Of a stretch of DNA of 64,000 nucleotides, positions 11,086-58,000 are shown in pieces. Origin of the DNA: Pempheris klunzingeri (taxonomy: Eukaryota > Chordata > Actinopteri > Acropomatiformes > Pempheridae); the NCBI RefSeq assembly GCF_042242105.1, contig NC_092013.1:9508618-9572617 (forward strand), read 5' to 3'. Every line of letters begins with the position of its first letter. Position 1 is the first letter of the stretch. The position numbers and the translations under genes are program-made. The notes below the pieces were generated by a model. That model did no database searches. It had not been told where the DNA came from and was given only the letters and a program-made list of their open reading frames with translations.

Positions 11086-20529
<9,444 letters not shown>

Positions 20530-29000: not shown

Positions 29001-29410
29001 TGCTGTTGTAATTTAATGTTTGTCTGTTTCATCCACCTCCTCCTCTTCCTCAGTTTTAATGCTAGATGAGTGAGGTGGGTGTGGCTTCCCACCAGCCCGA
29101 CCATCCTGACTGACGGATCTCTGGATGACCTTGTCCCCACCCCTGTCCCTGCGCTCACATACACCACAGCAATGTCACATCTGCCCAGCAGCTCAGTCCG
29201 CGACCATATGAAATGGGTTTGTTTTAAGAACACCAAAGTGGTTACAAATAACTTTACTTGCAGTCTTGTGTCACTCAGGATGTTGTCGTTGATGACTAGC
29301 TTGGCAAATGCCACGTCACTGGCAATATTGTCTGAGATGCAGATCATTTGAAATTGCGGCCTGTTTGATATGGTTGGTAAAGAGTTGCTCTTCATTCTTT
29401 TTCCTCGCAG
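26024..29410 (+). other. ZNF740 first intron
   Basis: There is no coding exon. The first 700 bases are unusually dense in GCTAGC and GTTAGC motifs (see findings). The remainder is AT-rich. A stretch near 28490-28560 (AGGGGTAATATTATGCCTTT) resembles a dispersed teleost repeat but is too degraded to name. Confidence 0.5.
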
Positions 29411-29446
29411 GCGGGGCTGCTTGGCTGCGAAGCTGTCCTCTCCAGT

Positions 29447-32400
29447 ATGGCCCTGATGCAGGCCAGCTCCATGGCTGCTCCGCCCAAAAAAATGATGGCT
29501 CCACTTGGCCATGGACCACCGCAGAGAGAGGGTCCTGACCGTGGTCCCCAGAGCCACATGATCCTCCCATCTGGAATGAGCTGTCCACCCCTGGTTAGGA
29601 CCCTCTTGGGAAATGGGCTGATATATTTCATGCTTGTAATATTGTGAAGGGTGTAAAACCGTTGCTTTTATGGAGTTAGAAATTTGAAGCGGGTGTAAAT
29701 GCTTGAATCTTGATTATTTACTCTACTCTAAAACAACCCCTACTTCTTGTTTTTGTGTGTGAATATTTATATATTCCTCCACAGCTTTCCTAAAATCTTA
29801 AAATTCTACTTCTTAAAATTTCGATTTGCTTCAGATGACCAAACCAGCACAATATATGGACTGTATTCCACATCCCTCAGAAATTATTCAAATAGTTTAA
29901 AATTGTATTGGTTTTACAAAAATCAAGGTGCAAACTTTACAAACCCAGCTTCTTCAGCTAGCACATGATAGATGACTTATTGCTTAATTTTAGTCATGTT
30001 CAGATTTTTTTTTTGAAAGCCAACAGATCTGATATCAGGAAATAATTGACCTTTTCTGGCTCCGTAGCTTATCCGGAAGGAAGGTGAATTCCAAGCTCCC
30101 CGCCTGCTGGATGAGAAGGAGATGAGGGCCAACGAGGACATGCAGCAGAAAAAAAAGAACAGGAAATCAGTAACGCCCTGTAAAGTGAGAGAACAAGAGG
30201 GAAGGGGAGGGAAGGTCAGTGGCTGTGGTTGCTAAACGGGGAATGGTCTCTGCTCTGCATGTTCATTTTTCCTCACACACGAAATTGTGCCGATAGCTGC
30301 TCGAGCACGTTTTTGTAAAAGCACTTAACTTTATTCAAGTGCGTCTGACTTGGGGCTTTCATGTGTGCACTTTTTGTTGGTGTGGGGGTGGGGGGAGGAG
30401 CCCAGGGAAGATGTGGAGGGGGTGGAGGATCTCTGGAGAGGAAAGAGGGGGAGGGGAGCAGAGTGAAGCCGAGCACAATAACTGCAGTTGTGTGCATAAC
30501 AGGGGGAGCAGTAACATGAGGGCATTAGGCCATCAGAAGGGATTGTGGGGCATTTCTCAATTCAAATGTTAATTACACGTAGTAAAAAAAAAAACAAAAC
30601 AAGACAAACGTGCTTGTTCATACCAAAGATAATTTGGGTTTTAGAAAAGATAAACCATTAGAAATGTAAATGAAAAATTGGACAATGTGTGCAAAGCCTC
30701 CAGCGTGTAATCATATGCCTTACATTTACTGGCATTTTACTGGAGTTTTAGATTTTCATCAGTTTCAGAGCAGTAGTGGGTGGGTATTTTTGGCCAATTA
30801 TGAAATCTGTTTGTGGTCAACTGCACCTTTCATGCAAAACATTATTGATGTACTGTTAAATTGACTGAAATGTTGAACCATTATTCTTTACTGTCCTCAT
30901 TAGGGCACAGGTGGAGATGAGAATGGTCCATCATCCAAAGTGCAGAAAAACTTTATTTGTGATCACTGTTACGGAGCATTTAGGAGCGGATACCACCTGA
31001 AGAGACATATCCTCATTCATACAGGTATGGGTCATGTTGGGAACAGCTCACGTTCACAGTTAAGCCAAAACAGCTTTTAATGCCTGATTACATGAATCAT
31101 TTGTTGAAAGAGACCCTGAAAAGCTTGAGTTGGACTGAATCTAGGAGTGTGCAGCAACTGTAAGGTTTTGCAATGGCCTGCTTAAAAACCTTGTTTGGTT
31201 ATAGCATTTGCCTCACAGCTAAATTGGTGGTATCTGTGGGGACTTTGACTAAAACTGGTGCTCTTCGGTTTAGGGGAGAAGCCGTATGCTTGTGCCGTTT
31301 GTGACATGAGGTTTATTCAGCGTTACCACCTGGAGAGACACAGCCTCATTCACACGGGTATGCGTCCTTTAACCGTACCCATATTGCATAAATCGGACTA
31401 CACCTGTTGTCCGTCACTTGAATCAATGGACAGATGCTCAGGGTTCTTTTTGTCTGTGGACAGTAATTTCCAACAAAGCCACCCCCCCCAAAATCTGTTC
31501 ACCCCAAAATATAAAGCACAGTATTTGTCTTTTAAATATTGGTCCCCCATCACCAGGAAGAATTTTTAATGAAGGCAATGTAATACAGTGTGGTCCAATG
31601 GTCCAAAGTCCACTATTAAAACTTGTTGTTTCGACATTTATGATAAAGTTGTTTTTTCTTTTTTAGATATGTTAGTTGCCACAATCCTAGCTTACCTTTT
31701 TACTGGCATGTGGAAATGCTTGCAGGGTTTGAGATCATTGAGCTTTATTTTAGAGGATCCCAGAGACGTTGGAGGCACATTCTTCCCTTTCTTCAGAATA
31801 TTATGTGTGGTTGCACTCTGATGCCTGTGGAGGGAGAAATCTGTCCCTCATGTGTGTCATAAACTTCAACTATTGTTACAGACGAATCCAATTTTTAATT
31901 CAAAATTGGATTTGTCTGTAACAATAACTTTCCTCCCATCTACAACTGTGATTTGTCAACATTGTTTGGCCTATGCCCGTTTGTGGCCCATGCCTGGGTT
32001 TTGACTTGTTTTGTTGTCAAATTGTGTCAACGAGTAAAGTGGGAGGTTCTTTGTTCATTTGAATATGTGTTCTTCATGCAAATGCTGTTGGGTCCTGCAG
32101 TGATGTCAGGTTGATCCACTGCTCTTCACTACTTTCTTTTGACTAGTTGAAAGTACATTAGAATTGAAACTCGGTTTAGTGACTCATATGTCTGACTCTA
32201 TTACAATATACTATTTGTATGTTTAGGTTTTTGTGACGTTTCTGTGTGCCACAGGTTATTCTTAAAACAACTATAATTAATTCTGTAAGTAATTAAGTAA
32301 TTATATCGATTATGTTTCTGAATGATGAGAACAAACAGTTCTGTAAACAAGACGTTTTGATAGTGGACTTGAAAGTGGACTCAAACTTGTGGACCCCAGT

Positions 32401-35400
32401 ATATGTATGAGAAAGCCTCCAAGCACAGGCCGCAAAAAAACATGCAAGATTTATTTATTTTTTAAAATCATTTGTCAATGTTATTATTACTTTGTCAGTG
32501 AAAATAATTGCATGGACATCAAAGGACTATGGTCTTAATTGTGTATATATAAAGTGAAAACTGAGGACTTGGTAAAAAAACAATTGTGTTGCACCCTTTC
32601 ACACAAATTCTTTGTTTTTCATTGTTTTTAAGAAGTATGCTGTGGGTAAGTCAACTTCCAACCTAATCGTTTTTCAAGTCAGTGACTGCCGCCCCAGTAT
32701 TCACCAAAAGAAATGCATCAGTAGTAAACTAATGTTAACCAAATCTGCCCAACTCAGTTGGCAAGTTTTATGTATACGTATGTATGTATATATTATTTTA
32801 TTCCAATGTCCCAGTAGCCTCAGTAAGCAGTTGCTCTTTGTAGCAACACTGCATCTGTTCTTTCTGTTATCCACATAATAAATTTTGTGATTTATTTTTT
32901 TTTTCTTTTCCACATTTTCGCTCATTTGATAGACTGAATAGCTAATAATTTTATGCTCTGTGTGTGTAGGGGTGAAGCCGTACGCTTGTTCCATGTGTGA
33001 CATGAGGTTTTTCCAGCGTTACCACCTGGAGAGACACAGACTCACTCATACGGGTATGCGTCCATTTACCGTACCCAGTTCAACTTAAGAAACTTTACTT
33101 AATCAGCTAGTCTCACTGAGACAACATACCAGGCCCAAGCCACCCTTTAGGAGTTGATGGAAAAAATCTTGAAAAAACCCTAATATGTCAGACTGATATC
33201 TGACTTTAGAAAGTTTACACATTATTATTCATTTTCCCATATTAAGGGTTCCAAACTGTATATGTAGAATTACAAAAATATCAGTGAGAACTAAAATGGC
33301 TCCTGTGGACCCCTCAAAGAGTATTATCCCTCTTGTACCATTGCTGCTCAACAACATTTACTCTGTTTGGCTTTATATTTTGCCTGTTTTGTTTTTTATT
33401 TTCCGAGGATATTGTTAGCGGTACTCATTGAAGCGATAAAGCTGTTTGTTAGCTGTTATCATACATTTTGTACACAGAAGTGTACAAAAGAAAGAAGTTA
33501 GTTCTGCACATTTTGCGTATGAATGAAATGAGATACAATTTTTATTCTCAATGGATTTATCCATCATGGTTATGAGGATATGTGATACGATGTCATAGCC
33601 GCTGCATAAGAGACGGGGGTGACTGGTCACAATGCATTACAGACAAAATAATATAATTTTGCTTCAACAAGACACTAGCTCAGTCTGCTGTTGGGGAAAA
33701 TCTGGTAGTTAACGGCCATATTGAAGTAGCAGATTAACTGAGAGGCCATGGTATATTATGGGAATAGTCCTTTGATGTCCACATATATTTTACATGCAGA
33801 TTAATGGCTGCACAGCTCGTGTGTCAAAAACTGTAATTGTCTGGCTTTTTCATTTAATATTGTTATCGTGTAGTTGCACAGTCGCTTATACAGATACTTC
33901 TGCTGTAAGTTTATGGCGGAGATCAGATTGGAAGCTTGTCAAAGTTGGGGCGGATTGTCACTTTGGAGTGCTAGAAAACAAGCACACTTGCAACACAGGC
34001 TTTCATGCCACCATGAATTGACTTCAAACTTGCAACAAATATAATCACCACAATGTTAAGAACAAAAATGTCGTTGACACTTGTATTAGTGAATGGTGGA
34101 GAAGTGTGCTAACGTCTCTCCCTCAGCTGGCCAGTGTGATCACCGTCTTAGACATCTCTCTGCTGTCTTGCTGCTGACTTGTTTGTCATGTGTTAAACGT
34201 GCTCGGCTTGTATCCTGTTGCTGCTTTTGTTCCATGTGCAGTTTGTACTCCAGATTATTGGAAAATGAATGCTTCCCATTACAGAAGACACTTTTACTAA
34301 TTAGAAGTAAAACAAATCACCCCTTCGCATGAAGCTTGATTGGAATGTGTAATGTCTGCCAGGTCCTAGTGATTTAATGCCTGTGAATAATGCTTTCCTC
34401 TGATGCTTAAGGAACGTCTTAGCTAATGTGTTGACACTTTGTGTATGTAGGGGTGAAGCCGTACGCTTGCTCCATGTGTGACATGAGGTTCTTCCAACGT
34501 TACCATCTGGCAAGACACAGCCTCACTCATACTGGTATGCGTCTGCTTACCCTAGCTCATTAGGTAGTGGTGTTTTAGAAGTGCCTTAGCTTTTCAACTC
34601 ATAGCAGTGTAAACAGAAATTTAGGGTGTCTAAAATCACTGCCAGCTTCAAATATTCTCATTTTCAGAAACATTAAGATGTATCCAGACATGTGTTAGGA
34701 TGGTAGAATATAAAACATGCGTTGATGATTATGTGTTGAAGCTCATCTGTTTCTGTTTCTAGCATATATTTACATACTTTTTGTGTGTGTAGGGGTGAAG
34801 CCATATGCTTGCTCCATGTGTGACATGAGATTTTTCCAACGCTACCACTTGGCAAGACACAGCCTCACTCACACGGGTATGGGTTTCCCCTTCTTTGCTA
34901 CATTAGAGCCCAAATACCCTGTTTACTGAAGCTCATCTGTACCTTGTTTATAAAATGACAGTAGTCTAGTTTTCTTTTAAATATCCATGAGCAGTCCATG
35001 CAACTTTTATGGCATGCTAGAGGAATGCCTTTTTAGTTGTTCTTTATGGCACCATTTTAGACAGCATTTCCCAAGTTAGAGTGCCTCAATTGGTACTTCA
35101 CTGCAGTGCCTGTAAATTACACCTTGTCTTGTCTCAGAAGACTTTTTCAGCCTTTTCAGTGCATGTAGACATTGAAAAGCTGCACTTATTTCAGCATAAA
35201 GACATTTTCTTTGAGGTACTTTTTTTTGTTTTTCTTCACGCATGTTGAAAGATTAGAAAATGTTAGCTAAATGCCTTTAGTGTGACATCATACTGGCGCT
35301 GCTGCTCTTGGCATGTCTGGATACATAATATAAGTGAGTGTGTCCTGTTCAGTTCATTGTGTTGTTTTTACAAAATATTTTGCTCTGTGTGTGCAGGGGT

Positions 35401-38400
35401 GAAGCCATATGCTTGCTCCATGTGTGACATGAGATTTTTCCAGAGATACCACCTGGCAAGACACACTCTCACCCATACGGGTATAAGTTTTACGTATCCC
35501 TCTCAATTGACAGCATCAGGGGTTGTAGATATTTGCCCTTGTGTGTAGGCATCGCCTGCCTTAATCCATATATCTTGATTATACAAGGTTAAAGTTAAAG
35601 CACTAGTAGATTTTTTCTTTCTTTTCTGGTGTATTGATTGTATTTGCTTATTGCTTTTAGGGTTGACATGACACATTTTATCTCTTGTATGTATAGAGAC
35701 TAGTAGAGACCTTGTAATGACCTAACACTGACTACTGTTTGTAAAATGACCTATTTTGTGTACATAGTTCATGAGAACACTTTTCTAAAGTTTGGTACTG
35801 TGTGCGTTTAGGGGTGAAGCCATACGCTTGCTCCATGTGTGACATGAGGTTCTTCCAGCGTTACCATTTGGCAAGACACAGCCTCACTCATACTGGTATG
35901 CTTCAATTAATTGTTCCCCTTTCACTATGAAACTTTCATATAAACAACATACACATGATTTTTTTTTTAAATTCCCTCTATATACAATACCATAATTATG
36001 CCGTTGTTGATAAATTAATTTCCCCTTCCTAAAAATGTTTAATAGAATTTTTAGGCTTTGTTGGAAAACTGTCCACTGAAAAAGTGACTCTCTGTGTCAG
36101 TTACCATGTTTTGTGATTAACGTTGTAATGGTACTATTGCATGTGTATTATTGAGTACTATATTGCTACAAATGAAAGGTACATTACACTAAAAAGCGTT
36201 TTTAAATGCAGGCATCAAGACGCTAAATTTCTCAAGATTTTATCAGGTAAAAACAGCAATGTTTGACCTGACTAAACAGTGAAATGGTGCATCTTGAACA
36301 TGGTGTTACTCAAAGTTTCAACATTAAAATGGTTTTCTACCACCACCACTAGCAGTTTTGCAGAATGACTGAATATTGCTCAAACTGGTCCAAATAGCAT
36401 CGCGTAAGCCCTGTTTCTCCTTAATTGAGGATGCACAGTAACTCTTGATGTCCGCAGGTTCTTAAGCTCTTTTTCGTGTAATGTCTCCAACAGAGTTTTG
36501 TCTGTAATAAAGCATGCAAGAAGTAACAGCCTGAAAGTATTTCATTAAGTCTTTATAAATCTTGGTGTTCATGAACTTCACCTGTGTGTTGAAATACATC
36601 TGACATTCTTGTGCTCTGTTTAGGGGTGAAGCCGTATGCTTGTACCATGTGTGACATGCGGTTTATACAACGTTACCAACTGGAGAGACACAGTCTTACT
36701 CATACGGGTATGTCCTCATTTTTTTAACCATGACACGCTCTCTCTTTCCCTCACTTTGGTCATGCATGCGCTCCACATTAATGCTCACATGGCTGCTTCA
36801 AACTCGAGTTTGTATTGCTTTCTGTCACTATCCTGACAAATATTTCATGTAGCATCAACAAGGAGCTTCATAAGCACTTGCATAACAACTTTTCCCATAA
36901 TTTGCATATGAAATGACATGATGACCATGAAGCAAAAATGCCAACACCACTCTTTTCAGACTTTATGTATTTGAAGCAGTTCAGTTGTAACTGGAAATTC
37001 TACTTTGAAACAATAGAGTACACAGCTTTGAAAAATTTGTTTTGTAGCCCAAACATGACTCCTAATCCTTCATATTTCCAAAAAAGCAGCCAAATTCTTA
37101 TGAATACTTGAAATGCATAAACCCTGAGAACACATGAAAATATTTCATAGGCACTTTAGTTCCAAGACTCTTAGTGTCTGTGCCTTGCAGCCTCAAAGAC
37201 ATGAGTGCACATTAAGGTCTCTCTTCTCTATTTTGATACTTATCAAAACCTTTTTCCTGTACTCTAAAATCAAATTGAGTCAGGGAAAAACAGGTCCATG
37301 CTGTAGGTGTGTGCTGTAGGTGTGTGACTGCCTACAGAAACCAGATTGGCCCAAGCTCCCATTATTATGGACTCAAGGATTTTCACACACCGAGTCTGAG
37401 TCCTGTTCATTTTGGGGCAGTTGTGAAATTATTCTACAGTCAGTAAACAGTATATTGGTCTTTAGGGGCTCAAAATCACTGCGTGGGGTCTGAGTTGATG
37501 TGAATGGGATTTTATATTTAGTTCATATTTAGGCTAAAATTCACACAGGGAAAATTATTTTCCTGTAAAAAAAAAAAAATTCTAAACATTCAAATTTAGC
37601 TGCCTGCTCACACAGCATAGTCATTGTGTCATTTCACATTCAAAGTAATGGTGGGGAAATAATCTTTGTCTATCATGTTTGGAAACTGATTGTGTGTAAG
37701 GATATACTTTAATTTGCCAGTCTGCTTTTATAGTACAGTTTGTAAAACTAGAGGAGAGTGAGTGGTTTATTTTTGCTTAAATGTCAAGATAGGTTCTGTG
37801 TGGTTTTTCAGAGCACTTTCCATCACTATGACTATGAATCAGTTTTTGAAGCTAAATAACAAGAGTTGCTTTGCAAACAAATGTCTAATCTTGATGTGTT
37901 GTGCATAGTTGTTTACCAACTGCCTAAAATTGTCTCTGCGATCAGCGTTTCAAAAATCCCAAGTATTTGCGTCAACAAATCAATTCCAGAAATCTGTGCT
38001 CAATATGTTTAAATTATATGAACAAGCACCTGTTGGCATAGTGTTGAAAATTTGCTATTGTGCTAGTTGGAATGTGCCTTCTGGGGATTTTGGTTTCGTC
38101 GCGATTAATTGCCTGGTCATTTGGTAGATTTTTAGGTTTGATGATAATTTTGCTGTCTACATAGGATATTTTCATTATCACTCAATTTAAACGTTGACCT
38201 TTTGCTTTCGAGCAGTTACAGTTGAAGATAAATCTGGTGTGAAAACGTCATTTCCAATTGGATTAGCAGATTTTTGAAGCATGCTGGAATTTCCAGTTGA
38301 AACAAAGCGCTGATGAGTGCAACCAAACTTTACTAAGCAATTAGTAAAGTTTAACGTCGATCATTTTCGGCAGTTGTGTGTTTTATTCTAAAGTTGGTAC

Positions 38401-41400
38401 TTTGTGTGCATAGGGGTGAAGCCGTACGCTTGCACCATGTGTGACAAGAGGTTTTTTCAGCGCTACCACCTGGCGAGACACAGCCTCACTCATATGGGTA
38501 TGCGTCAGCCAATCTTAACCCTGTCACAAAATTAGGATTGTGCAACATCTGTATGCTTGATCTAGTCTTAAGTATCTGTGTTTAAACACAAATGATATAT
38601 ATGTAATATCAGATAGATGACCTCATCATCTCATGTGTTGTGTTATGTAAGTGGACTGTAGTTCCCCTCTGGGAATTTTGTAATTTGAAACAAGCATCTT
38701 TCGATATCATATTGTATCCTTGTAAGTAATTTTAGGGTATGACATTGGTTATTAACCACCGATATCAATTAAATCCAGATTGGTACTCTGTAGTCATAGA
38801 ATAGGAGCACAGGTTTATTTATTTTCTCTTGATGGCAGAGACACAAAAATAATTCTGTTGATGCTCTGCGTTTAGGTGTGAAACCTTACGCTTGCACCAT
38901 GTGTGACATGAAGTTTTTTCAGCGTTACCACCTGGCGAGACACAGCCTCACTCATACGGGTATGGGTCCGTGCACCGCGCCCATGACATTCAGTGGTAGA
39001 AATCAGTGTGCACATTTTAATTAATTTTAATTTTAATTCACTTCAGACATGTGCCTGTTTAATTTAAGGGAAATCTTAGTGCAGCTTTAACAAAGATTCC
39101 TAGTCTGTTGATGTTAGCTGTTGTCAGTTAAGATAGATAACCCTAAATCTTTTTTTTTATTAGCATTTTTTTTATGTTTGTTGGAACTACAACACTATGA
39201 AATGGTTAAAGGCATTATGAAGAAAACTTGTGAGGAAAAAGAGTTGTTTTTGCATGAATTGGCAATTGTGTGGTTAATAACCAATAGCGTATATATTAAT
39301 TCCTAAATTAAAAGAGGCAAAGTAATATGATATTGCTACTTTGCATTTAGGTGTGAAACCTTATGCTTGCACCATGTGTGACAAGAGGTTTTTTCAGCGC
39401 TACCACCTGGCAAGACACAGCCTCACTCATATGGGTATGCGTCCGCCCACCTTACCCATGTCACTGAGATCAGACTGTAATCACATTATGTCAGACACAG
39501 AGCCAGCCATCTTAGGTAGTTTTCAGTACTCTTGATTGAGCCTATCCTTCAATATTTCAATATGTGAATACAATGCAAAACAAGTCTTAATGTGTAAAGC
39601 AATACAGAACTGCAACATCATCAGCTCATGTGATGTGTTAAGTTGTGGATTTGAGAATTGGTTCACACAGTTTCATGTATTCTTTTATTGGATTTCAAGG
39701 AGAAACAACCATTAAAAGCAAAAATGCATTTCTTCAAAAAGAAAATTTCAAAACGATTCTAAAAAAGTGGTTAACAACCCATCAATTCTGGATGGATATT
39801 TGAAGTATATTTCTCATTGATGGATTGTGAACACAAAAAATTGCCAAGTCTGAAAATAATACCATAATGCTCTGCGTTTAGGTGTGAAACCTTTTGCTTG
39901 TACCATGTGTGACATGAGGTTTGTTCAGCGTTACCACCTGGCGAGACACAGCCTCACTCATACGGGTATGGGTCCGTGCACCTGCCCTCCTCACATTAAT
40001 GTAGATCACTATTACATAGTCTTTATTGTGATTATATAAGCAGCGCAGACAGACAAATTAGCAGGCCAAGCAAAATATTTGCATTACTAAATTTCTTAAG
40101 TCCAAGTAGGTAATAATAACTGATCCCCTCTAGAACGTTTAGCACCTTTTTAATGAAAATGCATTTTTAAAAAACTCGGTAGAACCACCAATACCAACAC
40201 ATTTGGCCTCGTCCTGTGCTTTTAAAACGCTCTTGCATTTTTGGTCACCACAGCTCTTAGAAATCGTCTCTCAGAAAATTCCTTCATTAGCCCTTCTTTA
40301 CTAGGCGTGATTACTTGTGGTGAAACACTCACTTCATTGTGTTTCCACATTGAAATGTGCTTCTAAAGACTGACAAAGGAAAAAAAAAAAATTATTAGCA
40401 TGATTGAAATCCTACTTTGGCCAATAGCCTGTTAACATAAGGCTTACAAAATTAAAGGCATTGATCGCAGTGCTCTGCGACTATAATTTTAACTATTAGA
40501 ATAATAATGGCTAATCATTTTGATTAGTGATGTAGCTAAAGCGGCCAATTGTGTAGTTGTCTTTGCTGGTAACAAAATGCGTTACATGAAGGAGACTTTT
40601 GACACATCTGTTTGTTTTTGCATGAATTGGCAAATGTGTGGTTAATAACCAATAGATTAGGCATTTATTTGTAAAGAATGAAAATTGAGGCAAAGTAATA
40701 TAATATTGCTACTTTGCATTTAGGTGTGAAACCTTATGCTTGCACCATGTGTGACAAGAGGTTTTTTCAGCGCTACCACCTGGCAAGACACAGCCTCACT
40801 CATATGGGTATGCGTCCGCCCACCTTACCCATGTCACTGAGATCAGACTGTAATCACATTATGTCAGATAAAGGCTCTGCCGTCTGAGGCAGTTATTACT
40901 ATTCTGTAAGAGTAACTAGTTGTACATTTTTCTTGATCAAGGTTGTCCTGGATTATGATTGTAAATACAACATTAAAGCAAGTCTTCACATGTAAATGAA
41001 CACAGGACTGTGACATCATCAGCTCATGTGATGTGTTTAGTTGTGGATCTGAAATTTGATCAACACAGTTTCATGTTATTTTTTATTGGACTTGGAGGAA
41101 AAAAACTCCACAGGAAAATTTCACATAAAAGTGGTTAACAACCCATCAATTGTGAAAAAGTGTTAAAAGTACATTACTGATTGATGGATTGTGACACAGA
41201 AATTAAAAGTCCTGAAAATAATGTATTGATGCTCTGCGTTTAGGTGTGAAACCTTTTGCTTGCACCATGTGTGACATGAGGTTTGTTCAGCGTTACCACC
41301 TGGCGAGACACAGCCTCACTCATACGGGTATGGGTCCGTGCACCTGCCCTCCTCACATTAATGTAGATCACTATTTTCACTTTATTGTGTTAATATGAGG

Positions 41401-43768
41401 GATACTGAAGTGCAGTTACACTAATAAGCTCAACGTATGCTTTTTTTATTTGTAGGTGCCCAGGTTAGTTGCCATTATTAAGATATTTACATTACTAGTA
41501 CTTAGTTTCAAGTAAAAAAATCACACGTGTGAGATGAAGACTAAGTGTAGTGATGAAGCAACAAACGCATGTTGCCCTCCAGAATTGTTGGCGGATAATT
41601 TGAACCTCTTGTGTGTTACACACTCCCAGGTAATCTAATACCACTCTAGCAAAAACCTGAGACACCATCAGCGTGTGTCTGTCTGCCTTCGCTCTTTAAC
41701 TTTAATTTACTTTAATTTCAATCTCGATCCAGATGGTGTCAGTGGAAATCCTAAAGGTGAACATTCAGGTTTTGATTTGTTTTGGCAGGTTTTTTTCCTT
41801 TGTTCACTACCCTTTTTAAATAATATTTGCTATGTGTAGCAGTAATACTGGAGGGCAATTCACAAAGTATAACGTGGATACACAGGATTGAGTATGTTGC
41901 TTTTTAGCTAGGTTGTAATTCCGTCTCCAGTTCCAAGAAAAGTAAGTAAATAATCAAACTTTTTTTTTTTAAACCCATATTTATCATAACTAATTTTGGT
42001 TTGACAGAAGAAATAATTTGTTTTGCACACAGAAGTGCAATAAATCTAAACCTTTCTCTAAGAAGTAAATAAATCCGAATGTGTTATTGAAACCCACCTT
42101 ACCAAAAAACAGTCTGTGTATCGCTGCATGTTATGAATCAACCTAAAAAGATTATTTTTAATAACAATTCTACCAGGATGTCTCTCATTTTGCATTTACG
42201 ATAGCATCCGATTGCACGCAGGCAGTAATAATGTAGTAAACATCTTACAATATTGATACAAAAAAATCTTTGAGTAACCTCAAAATCAGATAGTGACTTG
42301 ATGAAACTTAATATCCAGTAATGACTGGCTCACATTCAAAGTGAAAGATTAAAAAATGACCATTAATTATTTGTTAACATCCTTGTGGTATAATTATGAT
42401 CATCATAGACTGAAGGTGAGAGGATGCTGAAATAGTGTTGTTGCTGCTGTGTCAAATAAGGATATTTATTCAGACAGCGACCAAATGTTGCTCACATAGT
42501 GAATATATGACAGATCTTTGTGTTTTGTTTTGAAAACAGACATGTTTAGCTCCACATTATGTGACTTACCTCCATACTTTCTAAAAAAAAAAAAAAAGCA
42601 AATGCACATGACATTCTAAGAAATGATTAGCTTTTATCTCTGCCAGTCTTTTAGCCCTGGTGCTAGCCTGAGCTTGAAAGTTGTATTTCTTGTACGTGTG
42701 GGTGGTAGGGCTAATATATTGCTCTGTGTGTGTAGGGGTGAAGCCGTATGCTTGTTCCATGTGTGACATGAGGTTTATTCAGCGTAACCACCTGGAGAGA
42801 CACAGCCTCACTCATACGGGTATGCGTTCCTTTACCGTACCCATATTACCGAGAAAGGCTCTGGCGTTTGCAACACAACAGGGTCACAGCAAACTCGAGT
42901 TTGGATTGTCAAGTCATTTGATGGGATGTTGAACCAGCCTCAAAAATACTCACCCCAGTTTTTGGGGCCACTATGTTGCGTAGATCTGGGCCACGAAAAG
43001 AAAAAGAAAAAAAAAAAGAAAAGAAATTCCACTCTGATCTACACATAATGAGTTGATGACGAGGCCTTTTAGAATACCCATTTTCAGATGCTGAAACTAC
43101 ACTCTTCAAAGTTACTGTTAGGGCAGTGTGTAAGTGTAATATAGTTTGAAAATAAAGATAAAGTGAAAGGCTGCACGCAGTTTGTTGGTACGAGACGCTA
43201 AAATTGATGCATTGACTGTGTATTTGTGTGCTCTTTCAGGAGAGAAGCCATTTGCTTGTGACATGTGTGATATGAGGTTTATCCAGCGCTACCACCTTGA
43301 GAGACACAAGCGTGTCCATAGTGGGGAGAAGCCTTACCAGTGTGAACGGTGCCAGCAGGTATGCATGCACACAAACCAGATACCGTCATTTAATAATTAT
43401 GTCATTCAAATTTGTTCTTTGTGACACTTAAATGCCTCATTCAGATGTATACGTGTGCAATATGAAGATGGAGTTCTTGTTGTGTTAAGATAGACTCTGT
43501 GCTTTGTTGTGTTTTTATCTGTTATAAGTATTTAAACAGATTTATCCCACATTTACTTGAATTCTTAACCATACCCAATATGTGTGTTTTGAAGAACTTT
43601 TCACGGACAGACCGGCTGTTGCGGCATCGGCGGTTGTGCCAGGGTCGCAGCGTAGCCAAAGTAGAAAACCAGCCATGCTGCGAACCCCGCCCGTACCCCC
43701 AAGAACCCCCACCCGCTCCCCCCACCTGGAGTCCCCTGCATCCCCCTCCAGGCCGGCTGGCGGTCTGA
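29447..43768 (+). CDS. znf740: ZNF740-like C2H2 zinc-finger protein with a tandem finger-exon array
   Basis: Coding exons: 29447-29593 ([19 protein letters not shown]), 30068-30214, 30904-31024 (finger 1), fourteen 84-nt finger exons E1-E14, 43240-43358 and 43595-43768 (stop). With every exon included, the product is 627 residues with 17 fingers; without the array it is 235 residues with three fingers, close to mammalian ZNF740 (about 193 residues). Signature matches: [54 protein letters not shown] and [17 protein letters not shown]. The last finger is C2HC. ZNF740 is a nuclear DNA-binding protein that selects C/G-run sites; its close kin are ZNF148, ZNF281 and MAZ. A basic patch, QKKKNRKS, precedes finger 1. 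The start at 29447 is the first ATG after the acceptor at 29410 and matches the family N-terminus only loosely. The Pro-rich tail is fish-specific as far as I recall. Confidence 0.9.
30904..31024 (+). CDS. znf740: ZNF740 finger-1 exon
   Basis: The exon starts in phase 0 after TCATTAG and ends in phase 1 before GTATGG. It encodes zinc ligands C117, C120, H133 and H137 in ICDHCYGAF...[10 protein letters not shown]. This finger is conserved with mammalian ZNF740 and differs from all array fingers, so it is the fixed 5' anchor of the array. Confidence 0.95.
31274..31357 (+). CDS. znf740: Array finger exon E1
   Basis: 84 nt, phase 1-1, TTTAG acceptor and GTATGC donor. It encodes [20 protein letters not shown] then ERHSLIHT. 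It is the only array exon with the ancestral TGEKP linker, and the only one with an alanine-valine (AVC) pair in the cysteine knuckle. Helix positions -1, 2, 3, 6 are Q, Y, H, R. Confidence 0.95.
32970..33053 (+). CDS. znf740: Array finger exon E2
   Basis: 84 nt, phase 1-1, GTGTAG acceptor and GTATGC donor. It encodes [20 protein letters not shown] then ERHRLTHT. The linker is TGVKP. It is the only array finger with arginine after the first zinc histidine. The preceding 1.6-kb intron contains a strong hairpin at 31871-31926. Confidence 0.95.
34451..34534 (+). CDS. znf740: Array finger exon E3
   Basis: 84 nt, phase 1-1, TATGTAG acceptor and GTATGC donor. It encodes [20 protein letters not shown] then ARHSLTHT. 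The protein is identical to E4 and E6; its nine differences from E4 are all synonymous. Confidence 0.95.
34793..34876 (+). CDS. znf740: Array finger exon E4
   Basis: 84 nt, phase 1-1, GTGTGTAG acceptor and GTATGG donor, only 258 nt after E3. The protein is identical to E3 despite nine nucleotide differences. Confidence 0.95.
35397..35480 (+). CDS. znf740: Array finger exon E5
   Basis: 84 nt, phase 1-1, GTGTGCAG acceptor and GTATAAG donor, the strongest-looking donor in the array. It encodes [20 protein letters not shown] then ARHTLTHT, with threonine in place of serine after the first zinc histidine. Confidence 0.95.
35812..35895 (+). CDS. znf740: Array finger exon E6
   Basis: 84 nt, phase 1-1, CGTTTAG acceptor and GTATGC donor. 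The protein is identical to E3 and E4, with three synonymous differences from E3. Confidence 0.95.
36624..36707 (+). CDS. znf740: Array finger exon E7 (helix position 3 changed)
   Basis: 84 nt, phase 1-1, TGTTTAG acceptor and GTATGT donor. It encodes [20 protein letters not shown] then ERHSLTHT. The histidine at helix position 3 is glutamine here. The zinc ligands are intact, so the change affects likely base readout and not folding. Confidence 0.95.
38414..38497 (+). CDS. znf740: Array finger exon E8
   Basis: 84 nt, phase 1-1, GCATAG acceptor and GTATGC donor. It encodes [20 protein letters not shown] then ARHSLTHM. It differs from the E3 type by lysine after CD and by a THMG linker in place of THTG. 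It is the first member of the two-exon unit repeated as E10 and E12. Confidence 0.95.
38876..38959 (+). CDS. znf740: Array finger exon E9
   Basis: 84 nt, phase 1-1, CGTTTAG acceptor and GTATGG donor. It encodes [20 protein letters not shown] then ARHSLTHT. It is the second member of the duplicated pair, related to E11 and E13. Confidence 0.95.
39351..39434 (+). CDS. znf740: Array finger exon E10
   Basis: 84 nt, phase 1-1, GCATTTAG acceptor and GTATGC donor. The protein is identical to E8 and the nucleotides are identical to E12. The flanking introns also match E12, marking a recent duplication. Confidence 0.95.
39882..39965 (+). CDS. znf740: Array finger exon E11
   Basis: 84 nt, phase 1-1, CGTTTAG acceptor and GTATGG donor. 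It encodes [20 protein letters not shown] then ARHSLTHT. It differs from E13 by a single synonymous base (TGT/TGC cysteine). Confidence 0.95.
40724..40807 (+). CDS. znf740: Array finger exon E12
   Basis: 84 nt, phase 1-1, GCATTTAG acceptor and GTATGC donor. It is base-for-base identical to E10. At least 50 nt of downstream intron and about 40 nt upstream are near-identical too. Confidence 0.95.
41244..41327 (+). CDS. znf740: Array finger exon E13
   Basis: 84 nt, phase 1-1, CGTTTAG acceptor and GTATGG donor. The protein is identical to E11. The downstream intron (GTATGGGTCCGTGCACCTGC) is shared with E11. Confidence 0.95.
42736..42819 (+). CDS. znf740: Array finger exon E14 (helix position 2 changed)
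   Basis: 84 nt, phase 1-1, GTGTGTAG acceptor and GTATGC donor. It encodes [20 protein letters not shown] then ERHSLTHT. Helix position 2 is asparagine where all other copies have tyrosine. Its FIQ...LERH body and downstream intron most resemble E1 at the far end of the array. Confidence 0.95.
43240..43358 (+). CDS. znf740: ZNF740 conserved central-finger exon
   Basis: 119 nt, starting in phase 1 after CTTTCAG and ending in phase 0 before GTATGC. It encodes [28 protein letters not shown], then [12 protein letters not shown], the first half of the last finger. This is the direct counterpart of the mammalian ZNF740 second finger and the likely parent of the array exons. Confidence 0.95.
43595..43768 (+). 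CDS. znf740: ZNF740 terminal coding exon
   Basis: Starts in phase 0 after TTTTGAAG. It encodes [17 protein letters not shown], completing a C2HC finger, then a Pro-rich tail ([19 protein letters not shown]) ending at TGA 43766-43768. The polypyrimidine tract is weak, but the family match across the junction is clear. Confidence 0.9.
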   Translation, partial: NFSRTDRLLRHRRLCQGRSVAKVENQPCCEPRPYPQEPPPAPPTWSPLHPPPGRLAV

Positions 43769-54446: not shown

Positions 54447-55033
54447 GTAAGAAAACTTTCAACAGCACAAAGTTTGTTCATTTATTAAAGCTAATCCAGT
54501 TATCACCTGAAACCTATGAATTCTTAAATATAGACAAAAGGAAAGATTGATCTGTTATGATGAATGTGTTTTGTTTATCTTATTTGTGTATTTATGATGC
54601 AGTTATGGTCAGCTTTGTGTTGATTACAAATTAGATATAAGACATAATGAAAAAAAATCATTGTTTCAGTGTTGGAATATAAACCAGAGCTTTTAGTTGG
54701 CAAAGATCTATCTTTTATCATCAAAGACTGATTCTAAAAACTGTGATTTAATACATGTTTCGCTATCATTTCTGATGTATGTTTATAGTTGATCATTTGC
54801 ACTGTTGAAATGTACAAAAAGCAAACATATGGATAACCTCATGGCTCAGTAGGTATATGTGGTTGTTGTTGATAAACATATTGGGCCATAGGCAACTGGT
54901 GTTGTGACCAGGCTGCATTCCTGAGCGGACTCTGCTCTCACATTTCATCAGCTGTTCTCCTCCAGACTGAAACTGGAGCACGTTTCACCAGATCCACTTA
55001 TGTTTTCTTTCTTCTGAACAGCTTCCTGATACC

Positions 55034-58000
55034 ATGGATAAACAGTCCACGGTGGTGTTTCGAAATGTGGGGCAACTGTACTTCCCCCAAACCAGAGTTG
55101 AGTGTCACTACAGTGTGACCTCCGACCATCACTGGAGCAGCAGTGACTGGATAGGGATTTTTCAGGTAGATGCACCCCCCTCAGCAGATAAATCATCAAT
55201 GCATGAATGATTGGTTTAAAAGAGTGTTTGTTTTCATGCTGCAGGTGGGCTGGTCTTCAGTGAAACAGTATTACACATACACATGGGCTCTTGTTCCTGA
55301 AGGCTACACTGAGGGCACCAGTGTCAACTATTGTGCAATTTTCCAGGGTAAGAAAACTTAGTTAAACATTTTAAAAAAAATTAATAATCAGATAGATCTT
55401 CTTGATATTCTTCCCTTAAAAAGCAACTTAACACCAGGCTGAAATGCAGCATTTCCCTCACATACATCTCCCCCACATAAGATGCCACTGATGGTTGTGT
55501 GTCAGAGTTGCGCTCTGTTGCACCTGTAACCACGCTCTATAGTAATGTCACAGTGTTAAACCACTGGAGGTCAGCAAAAATAAGAAAATCTTCAGCTGCT
55601 TTTAAGTTGCCGCTGTGTAGTTTGATCAGAATAACAGTTCTGCAGTAGATGAAAAGCACCATGGTCAACACTGACAAGTTTAAGATAGTTTGATTCATTT
55701 GTGGCTCCACTATTTACACTTTCTGTACATCTTATTCACTTCAAACGACCAATTATATAGTTTTTCTTTTAATTGAATAACCAAAATGTGTCTTTTTGAT
55801 CCAGCGTGCTACCTGCCCCGACCCAGTGCTGTGGAGTATCAGTTTATATATGTGGATAAGATGGGAGAGGTGTGCGGCCGTAGTCGCCCCTTCACCTTCT
55901 GCGCTCCAAAGCCGCTGGAGGAGCTGGAGACTCTGAAAGAGGAGCGAGATGAGGAGGACGGAGAGGAGGAGCTGCTGCTAGTCATCCCCAGAGCTCACCT
56001 GCTGCAGGTGGGAATAAAAAATATCAGCCCTGCGTTGAACCACTCCAGATGCTAGCGAGGATATTTGATAGATACACAAAATCAATGTATTAATGTAAAC
56101 AGCAAATACTTCCCTGTCCTCTCTCCCCACGTTGTGAACAGATTCGGCTGGAGGAGTGCTTGAAAAACCTTGTGGACATACAGCAGACTCTGGACGTGAC
56201 AAAAAAGGAGACAGAGAGGGAGAAAGAGGACAATAAAAAAGCAAGGATGGAGTGGGAGCGTGAAAGAGAGATGATGAAGGAGGAGATCTCAGAGCTTAGA
56301 GACAACTTGAGACACAACTGTGAGCTGCTGAAGAAGGTGGAGGGAAAACACAAGGTACGGGCAGGTCGTGACACTGAATTTGTTTTGTGGTTGCCATTTC
56401 CTTTTAAACTTAATATTTTGAATTTCACTGATAACTAACACTAGGTTTTTGATTAAAAACACTATATAGCGATAACATTTGTTTTTTCTCTCTACAACAT
56501 TGAAAGGATGTGAAATATAGTCAAGAAAATCTGACCTTAGAACTGAGTAAACATATGGATGAAAAAGCTGAGAGTCTGCAGCGGATCAAAGACCTGAAGG
56601 AGGACATCACGGCCCTGAATGACAGGGAGAAAGAGGGAAACATGGAACTGGAAAGGTGAGTGTTTGAGACACGGTGCATGGTCTCATTTCCATTTATTTC
56701 CTTAGGCCTTAAAACTAATGTTGTTTTTGTCCCACAGGCTGAGGGAGAGAGTGAAGAAAATGTCCAGTCAAATGAAACACGACGAGGAAAAGAGAAAGTC
56801 TCTACAGGTAATTGGTTGGTGTTTCTTCTTCTCTTGTAAAACATAGATACAGGCAGCTCTGGGAGGTCCTCCAACCCCTCAGCTCACACAAAGCAGGACA
56901 GATTTAGATGGTTTGGTGTCTCAAACCATCCATGCCTAAATTTAACGCAGGGGTAAAACCTGAGACGTTATTACTTTCCTGTTCCTTCTCATCTAATCGT
57001 GACAGCTAAAACACTCCCCTCCTTTATTTCAATTGTTTGTTCCCGTACATCTCCCATCTCTCTGCAGGTGGAGAATGAGGCTGCTCTGGTGGAGGTCAGA
57101 GAGCTGCAGGAGCGTCTGGAGGCTAGCGAGCACGCAGCTGAGAGCCTGCGCAGGGAGCTGAGGGAGCTGGGCACCCGTCAGGGCCACACTCACACCGAGC
57201 TACACCAAGCCCGACTGCAAGTGGCCCAGCTCACCCTGCAGCTGTCCGAGGAGAACCTGCTCTTCAGGGAGGAACGCGCCAACTGGGCCCTGGAAAGAGA
57301 AGCATACAAACATGCAGCAGAAGTGAGGATGAGTGAGCAGAGCCTGCTGCTGCACATGCGTGATTGTATATATGTCGACCAAACCTGAACTATTCTTTAT
57401 TGTTTTTTTACGCAGACTGATAAAAAGAAATTCCAAGAGTTGATTTGTGAGGTGCAGAGGAAGGAGGAGTGGCTCCAGGAGGAGAGGATGGAGAGGGAGA
57501 AACTGGAAGCAGAGCTTGGGAGTGAGCGAGACTGCAACAGAGTAAGTAAATGAAAGTGCATCGTGGCCACCATTATTAACTAACACACAAACACATTCAG
57601 ACGGTAAAAATAACTGCTCGTGTGCCACGAATCTGCATCGTCAGATCACACTTTGGAAACTGGAGAACGATGCCAGAGTTCAGAGTAGAGCTTTTATTAC
57701 TCGCACACAGGCACAAATAGAAAGGCTTCCATGAACAGTGAGTAAACATTTCCTCTCACTGTCATGTGATCAGCAGCAGGAAAGAAGTCAAACCAGGTCA
57801 GACGCCTGTGTTCAGATGGTCTGAGTTTAATACTGCTGCCCCCTGTAGGTGCTGCTGAGCGAAGCTAAGAGAGAGCTGCAGGAGCTGAAGGCCAGTCTGA
57901 GGAAAGCCCAGGCAGAGAGAGAGGAGCAGCAGGTGGGCAAACAGGCAAAGATTCCACATATGCGTCTTAAAACTACTACTGCTTTTAGATAAGAGTGTTT

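Follow-up and report, generated by a model that had tools for sequence, protein, structure and literature searches.

Results

The znf740 locus

The window analysed here is a stretch of 64,000 nucleotides (contig C2, positions 9508618-9572617) from the genome of Pempheris klunzingeri, the assembly of which comprises 646 Mb in 439 contigs; coordinates are those of the window unless another contig is named. On its forward strand lies a znf740-type gene, which we take to be ZNF740 in keeping with the preliminary description of this DNA. It consists of exons A and B, an exon for the first zinc finger (F1), an array of 14 further exons, an exon for the second finger (F2) and a last coding exon. Exon A (29411-29593; 183 nt, borders read from the sequence) encodes the N-terminal region and ends in phase 0, with the start codon either inside it or further upstream; exon B (30068-30214) measures 147 nt and is of phase 0-0. 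The F1 exon (30904-31024, phase 0-1) and the F2 exon (43240-43358, phase 1-0), the latter including the first part of finger 3, both lie where the preliminary description had placed them. The last coding exon (43595-43768) holds the remainder of finger 3 and the C-terminus, with a TGA stop at 43766. Segments of two neighbouring genes were found in the window – a LIM domain encoded at 12289-12507 on the minus strand and a SKICH domain at 54971-55207 on the plus strand – and these are neighbours that presumably fit the vertebrate ZNF740 region. A GGA-rich stretch upstream of exon A (29032-29049, minus strand) is purine-rich and a candidate binding site for the protein.

An array of single-finger exons

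Between F1 and F2 (31274-42819) lie 14 exons on the forward strand, E1 to E14, every one of which is 84 nt long. Each is of phase 1-1, with a glycine codon split at both ends, is preceded by AG and followed by GT, is free of stops, and encodes one complete C2H2 (CCHH) finger plus linker; the count, coordinates and intact structure first reported for the array were borne out. The exons occupy 31274-31357 (E1, the sole member with EKP in its linker), 32970-33053 (E2), 34451-34534 (E3), 34793-34876 (E4), 35397-35480 (E5), 35812-35895 (E6), 36624-36707 (E7, with H changed to Q at helix position 3), 38414-38497 (E8, with a THMG linker), 38876-38959 (E9), 39351-39434 (E10, identical to E12), 39882-39965 (E11, with one silent difference from E13), 40724-40807 (E12), 41244-41327 (E13) and 42736-42819 (E14, with Y changed to N at helix position 2). 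Nine distinct finger sequences are encoded in all. The exons from E8 to E13 (38414-41327) alternate: E8, E10 and E12 encode identical proteins ending in THM, and E9, E11 and E13 end in THT.

Any subset of these exons had been said to join in frame, with 3 to 17 fingers possible, and so it proved: none of the 16,384 subsets breaks the frame, all keep the C-terminus, and together they specify 6,560 distinct proteins. With every exon joined the protein reads through with 17 fingers; with the array left out it has three. Pfam resolves the 17-finger form into tandem C2H2 domains, 16 double-finger stretches in all, and three families of unrelated name that also matched, at low scores, were taken as spurious. 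Searching the exon-masked window with all 14 exons (blastn and tblastn) revealed no degenerate extra fingers, the short matches returned having E values of 0.045 or worse; C2H2 matches on the reverse strand were rejected as further copies because every one contains stops. Stray fish DNA was also sought in bacterial and archaeal contigs, where none of 11 pattern matches was confirmed.

Selection on the array

A simple neutral simulation, with independent copies and uniform substitution at 0.15 per site, puts the chance that all 14 exons stay stop-free with CCHH intact at about 3e-13. The tree of array exons carries 41 changes that are synonymous and 19 that are nonsynonymous, against a ratio of synonymous to nonsynonymous sites of about 1 to 4 (omega ~0.11; binomial p 3e-16), and pooled pairwise values agree (dN 0.065, dS 0.58). 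None of the 19 nonsynonymous changes falls at a Cys, His or core position, and two fall at the four predicted DNA-contact positions (of 27 positions). The array exons are thus under strong purifying selection as protein, and an omega this low means that they are very probably translated.

The contact residues themselves, at what we take to be positions -1, 2, 3 and 6 of the helix, are Q, Y, H and R, the same set as in F2; departures are confined to two of the 56 array cells, one in E7 and one in E14. Elsewhere in the finger, E1, E2, E7 and E14 resemble F2 in having Glu before the helix Arg-His, and the other ten exons have Ala. Given two deviating cells in 56, the choice of exons is predicted to alter the number of fingers, the length of the protein and its linkers, and not the sequence recognised. 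A choice among fingers of differing specificity finds no support in these counts, and diversification of specificity is rejected on the same grounds.

An unexpanded second copy

A genome search with the E1 finger, in which 150 of 838 candidates were scored, gave at least 24 matches. The 14 array exons and F2 account for 15 of them, a single match lies on contig C11, and the others, at least eight, are on C10 (two), C20 (three), C17, C16 and C15. At the C11 locus, on the minus strand, exons A, B, F1, F2 and the last exon are matched in order (exon A by a stretch that is 45% identical, exon B by a match of 26 aa at 54%); these matches place both copies in one gene family. The C11 gene has three fingers, the number that the preliminary description gives for mammalian ZNF740. 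Its F1-F2 intron is plain and 451 nt long (C11 12654952-12655402), no array exon, finger or relic was found in it, and it follows that one znf740 copy alone has expanded.

Synonymous divergence between the copies is near saturation (dS 1.88 for F2, the F1 value being not computable), as fits ohnologs, and the two are likely to be products of a whole-genome duplication; the zebrafish gene name znf740b, as it stands in gene lists, points to a pair in that species too. At a threshold of E 1e-3, none of nine coding-segment queries from the window found a shared neighbour closer than ~50 kb to the C11 copy, and of three conserved-domain probes for synteny just the generic finger probe matched, at znf740 itself. 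Six of seven array exons tested differ from their own F2 at a dS of 0.68-1.25, E3 being saturated, and for all 14 the closer of the two F2 exons is that of the window, not that of C11. Because these distances lie below that between the copies, and because all 14 exons side with their own F2, the array probably arose after the copies had split.

The loci on C10, C20 and C17, which we take to be ZNF148/ZNF281-like, have related fingers and the same phase-1 intron between fingers. Each carries one 84-nt single-finger exon of phase 1-1, and no exon array was found in the 7-9 kb covered at each locus. Such single exons are raw material for a like amplification.

A probable chimeric founder exon

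The array exons are mosaics: the acceptor and nt 1-68 are F2-like, and nt 69-84 and the donor are F1-like. Over the exon and the first ten intron bases, a span in which F1 and F2 differ at 46 sites, the array consensus equals one parent at 40; of these, 36 are consistent with one switch point (nt 69-71; permutation p 5e-5) and four contradict it. Exon sites alone give 25 of F2 type to three of F1 type before the switch and none to six after it (Fisher p 6e-5). Among nine exons compared, the window F2 is nearest to nt 1-68 in 14 of 14 cases, with 51-58 matches in 68 as against 28-38 for the window F1 and 33-46 for the middle exons of ZNF148 type. Over nt 69-84 all 14 are nearer to F1 than to F2: the window F1 matches at 11-13 of 16 positions, the window F2 at 6-8 and the middle exons at 5-8, with the first-finger exon on C10 also matching at 8-12. 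When the C11 exons are used for comparison, the main BLAST match of all 14 array exons to F2 stops at nt 69, and F1 is matched weakly by seven of the 14, within nt 49-82 (E 3e-4 to 0.61). All 14 donors start with GTAT, as in the window F1 (GTAAGA in the C11 copy); since the donor of F2 is GTATGC, this shared start is not decisive for an F1 origin.

From this mosaic we infer that one unequal crossover inside a finger may account for the length, phase and position of the array exons. F2, misaligned on F1 at a stretch common to both (~TACCACCT.AGAGACA), would have contributed its acceptor and approximately its first 68 nt, joined to the last 16 nt and the donor of F1, and the product would have had the order F1 – chimera – F2. 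The F1 donor and the F2 acceptor being both of phase 1, the chimera would at birth have been a full 84-nt exon of phase 1-1 with working splice sites.

Growth of the array

Later unequal crossovers, together with homogenisation among exons, would have raised the number of copies to 14. The last visible step is the duplication of two exons, giving the pairs E10-E11 and E12-E13, and recent duplication within E8-E13 seems to have proceeded by a super-unit of two exons. Around their exons these pairs show 1 difference in 160 positions and 5 in 149, and along one shared intron stretch – even in this youngest duplicate – 24 in 129. Across the 11 exons that remain when E11-E13 are omitted as recent duplicates, similarity rises above background for ~20 nt upstream and ~30 nt downstream, and a block starting at the donor (GGTATGNGTCC....ACC) follows nine of the 14 exons with at most one mismatch (0.02 expected). 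Exon-centred homogenisation and selection on near-exon sequence would both fit this pattern. The intron between E1 and E2 contains a near-perfect hairpin (31871-31926) of two 28-nt arms, 93% complementary and with no spacer, which is perhaps a small foldback element.

Splice sites and intronic elements

Scored with human splice-site matrices, the array donors average 5.7 bits (the lowest being gtataa, of E5), and all 14 lie below those of B, F1 and F2 (8.3-8.7); the donor of A scores 5.4. Array acceptors average 7.0, with that of E6 the lowest, and the gene's other acceptors range from 4.2 to 15.0, none in the array falling below that of the last exon. Given that the donor of exon A lies below the array mean and that no array acceptor is weaker than that of the last exon, the weakness of the array splice sites is suggestive and no more. 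An array exon is the top local AG-GT pair in six of 14 cases and within the best four in 13.

The motif GGTTANNAACC occurs five times in the 64 kb window, once in every intron that precedes one of the exons E9-E13 and 68-118 nt upstream of the respective exon, giving eight strand-matches where 0.38 are expected; the element was absent from 19.9 kb of the C11 copy. Before E9 it is the near-palindrome ATTGGTTATTAACCAC (38744-38759), the exact reverse complement of GTGGTTAATAACCAAT, which lies before E10 (39270-39285) and again before E12 (40638-40653). The sites before E11 (39767-39782) and E13 (41131-41146) match at 14 of 16 positions and form part of predicted hairpins with 39816-39830 and 41180-41194 respectively; all five are recorded on the plus strand. 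In chosen 36-nt windows the E9-E10 and E9-E12 pairs are predicted to fold far better than shuffles. The introns upstream of E9, E11 and E13 align poorly, and their consensus fold is weak (-8.5 kcal/mol). Flanking E2 is an inverted repeat of 27 nt (32513-32539 and 33755-33781), 85% complementary and with an 18-nt perfect core.

Discussion

The znf740 array is a copy-specific exon amplification of the kind described for piccolo b, located in a gene for a DNA-binding protein. According to Nonet (2012), the piccolo b (pclob) exon has multiplied 8 to 16 times across teleosts, with unequal crossover proposed as the cause; in zebrafish there are 15 similar tandem central exons, each of them spliced in, with little skipping in heads and some elsewhere (PMC3484663). 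The likeness to znf740 is close: a phase-symmetric zinc-finger exon is repeated in tandem in one fish copy, and the other copy has the old structure (PMC3484663). A phase-symmetric exon repeated in one copy only is what the window and the C11 locus present. The two cases nonetheless differ in detail, for the piccolo b exons belong to a synaptic protein whose fingers are of CXXC type, measure 702-1350 bp in zebrafish and are of frame 0 (same source, PMC3484663), whereas those of znf740 measure 84 nt, are of phase 1 and encode one whole C2H2 finger each, their founder being apparently a chimera of two neighbouring exons.

Polydactyl C2H2 genes (KRAB-ZNF, FiNZ-ZNF and PRDM9) consist of tandem 28-aa finger units amplified by duplication, and in this the znf740 array resembles them. 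The arrays of FiNZ-ZNF and KZNF genes, however, sit in one exon, and in two clades their base-contacting residues are enriched for positive selection (PMC10547256). In znf740 there is one finger per exon and the contact residues are nearly frozen: the excess of change at such residues that marks adaptive polydactyl genes is absent, two of the 19 nonsynonymous changes being located there at an omega of 0.11. A different likeness is to insect Dscam1, with its tandem clusters of similar in-frame exons; complementary elements in the introns may be a further point in common. The znf740 array departs from Dscam1 in having no convincing docking at its ends and exons that vary little, and neither frame nor steric hindrance would keep these apart.

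A critical question is whether these exons are genuine, and if so whence they came. They might be dead or made by assembly and have no function, but the low omega, the intactness of all 14 copies and the divergence of the introns speak strongly against such an explanation, which we regard as very improbable: pseudoexons are rejected on the first two observations, and stutter in the assembly is unlikely given introns of 249-1706 nt that have diverged. As to origin, the array could descend from a single-finger middle exon, ancestral to genes of the ZNF148/ZNF281 type, that was kept here and lost from the C11 copy. In favour of this, the exons for the first and third fingers at the loci on C10, C20 and C17 do enclose one of 84 nt and phase 1-1; yet in all 14 array exons nt 1-68 match F2 better than they match the middle exons, nt 69-84 match the window F1 better, and the C11 copy possesses no exon of the kind. 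Fitting worse over both segments, the middle exon is the less likely source, and we give descent from it little credence. The crossover between F2 and F1 remains, in our judgement, the better account.

The manner in which the array is spliced is a separate matter. We consider it probable that the amplified exons are for the most part included, with some skipping, so that finger number varies and specificity stays the same; by analogy, the largely constitutive splicing of the piccolo b exons would favour this. Each exon might instead be skipped freely and independently, at intermediate inclusion, with a broad spread of finger numbers and no dedicated control. Every subset being in frame, the array donors scoring below those of B, F1 and F2, the acceptor tracts of many array copies being UG-rich, and the fingers being so nearly identical that most isoforms would be close to equivalent, all agree with such freedom, but purifying selection suggests exon use frequent enough to have consequences, and the piccolo b exons are mostly constitutive; we hold free skipping to be unlikely. 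More doubtful again is the proposal that splicing is mutually exclusive or strongly regulated, with competing RNA structures picking one or a few of the exons, at least within E8-E13. In its favour, the element preceding E9 is complementary in reverse to those of E10 and E12 over all 16 nt (14 of 16 for E11 and E13); the 36-nt windows of E9 and E10 have a predicted pairing of -30.9 kcal/mol, where none of 200 shuffles did better than -18.8; and the arms of the predicted E11 and E13 hairpins differ at 0 of 40 positions and their loops at 12 of 28, within limits set after the data had been viewed. A published model predicts that docking and selector sites arise from stem-loops that have been duplicated (PMC6071210). 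On the other side, four tests for docking sites, made on the first and the last intron, produced best windows scarcely above shuffles (three no better, one by 0.3 kcal/mol), and such sites are rejected; the best pairing between introns, taken without selection, reaches -55.7 kcal/mol, and over 26 shuffles the best of 105 averages -55.2; of 300 shuffled arrays, 19 contain an inverted pair that is perfect over 16 nt; and another perfect inverted pair exists elsewhere in the array (32513/33764). As the element is self-complementary and its copies are related by duplication, their pairing may simply follow from descent. Exons of 84 nt afford no exclusion by frame, introns of no less than 249 nt leave too much room for exclusion on steric grounds, and with contact residues that barely differ there is little among the array exons to choose between. 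Docking paired to a selector at every variable exon is not what the array displays, a common element being present in E8-E13 alone. The Dscam-like, mutually exclusive choice that the preliminary description held possible is thus without the docking and general pairing between introns that would usually mark it, and the element before E9-E13 is left as a possible exception.

Overall the evidence favours a counting of fingers over a choosing among them. Under predominant inclusion, most transcripts would carry most of the array exons, and the protein could have as many as 17 fingers. For the residues Q, Y, H and R the recognition code predicts about GGA per finger, and the preference of ZNF740 is G/C-rich. 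Because nearly all array fingers have the contact residues of F2, the same purine-rich recognition would be extended along the DNA, and weak donors would allow skipping, so that finger number, affinity or preferred tract length could vary while specificity stayed the same. Human ZNF740 peaks are mainly promoter-located and enriched for the factor's own motif (PMC11350041). A bolder scheme, to which we attach a low probability, is of a DNA footprint set by splicing, in which near-identical finger exons are admitted or omitted, in part by means of pairing between copies of the palindromic element, and act as a graded ruler of purine-rich (GGA or G-tract) DNA. If true, this would be a vertebrate instance of exon choice by competing structures, arising automatically from the duplication of exons along with their introns.

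Nonet (2012) knew of no other teleost gene pair in which just one copy had undergone drastic expansion of a domain (PMC3484663). The znf740 array looks like a second and independent case, this time in a DNA-binding module, and no report of it was met with in the literature searched, which consisted of titles and abstract openings and took in few subscription papers. Nonet noted that pclob was not properly annotated (PMC3484663); automatic annotation may blur arrays of such very short exons. At znf740 the founding recombination appears to be still legible, and the unexpanded sister gene is present in the same genome as a control. Two questions are thereby opened to direct test. One is the route from a lone exon to an array, which here would have led through a chimera formed where intron phases match; the other is whether the number of exons included lets a transcription factor adjust how long a site it binds.
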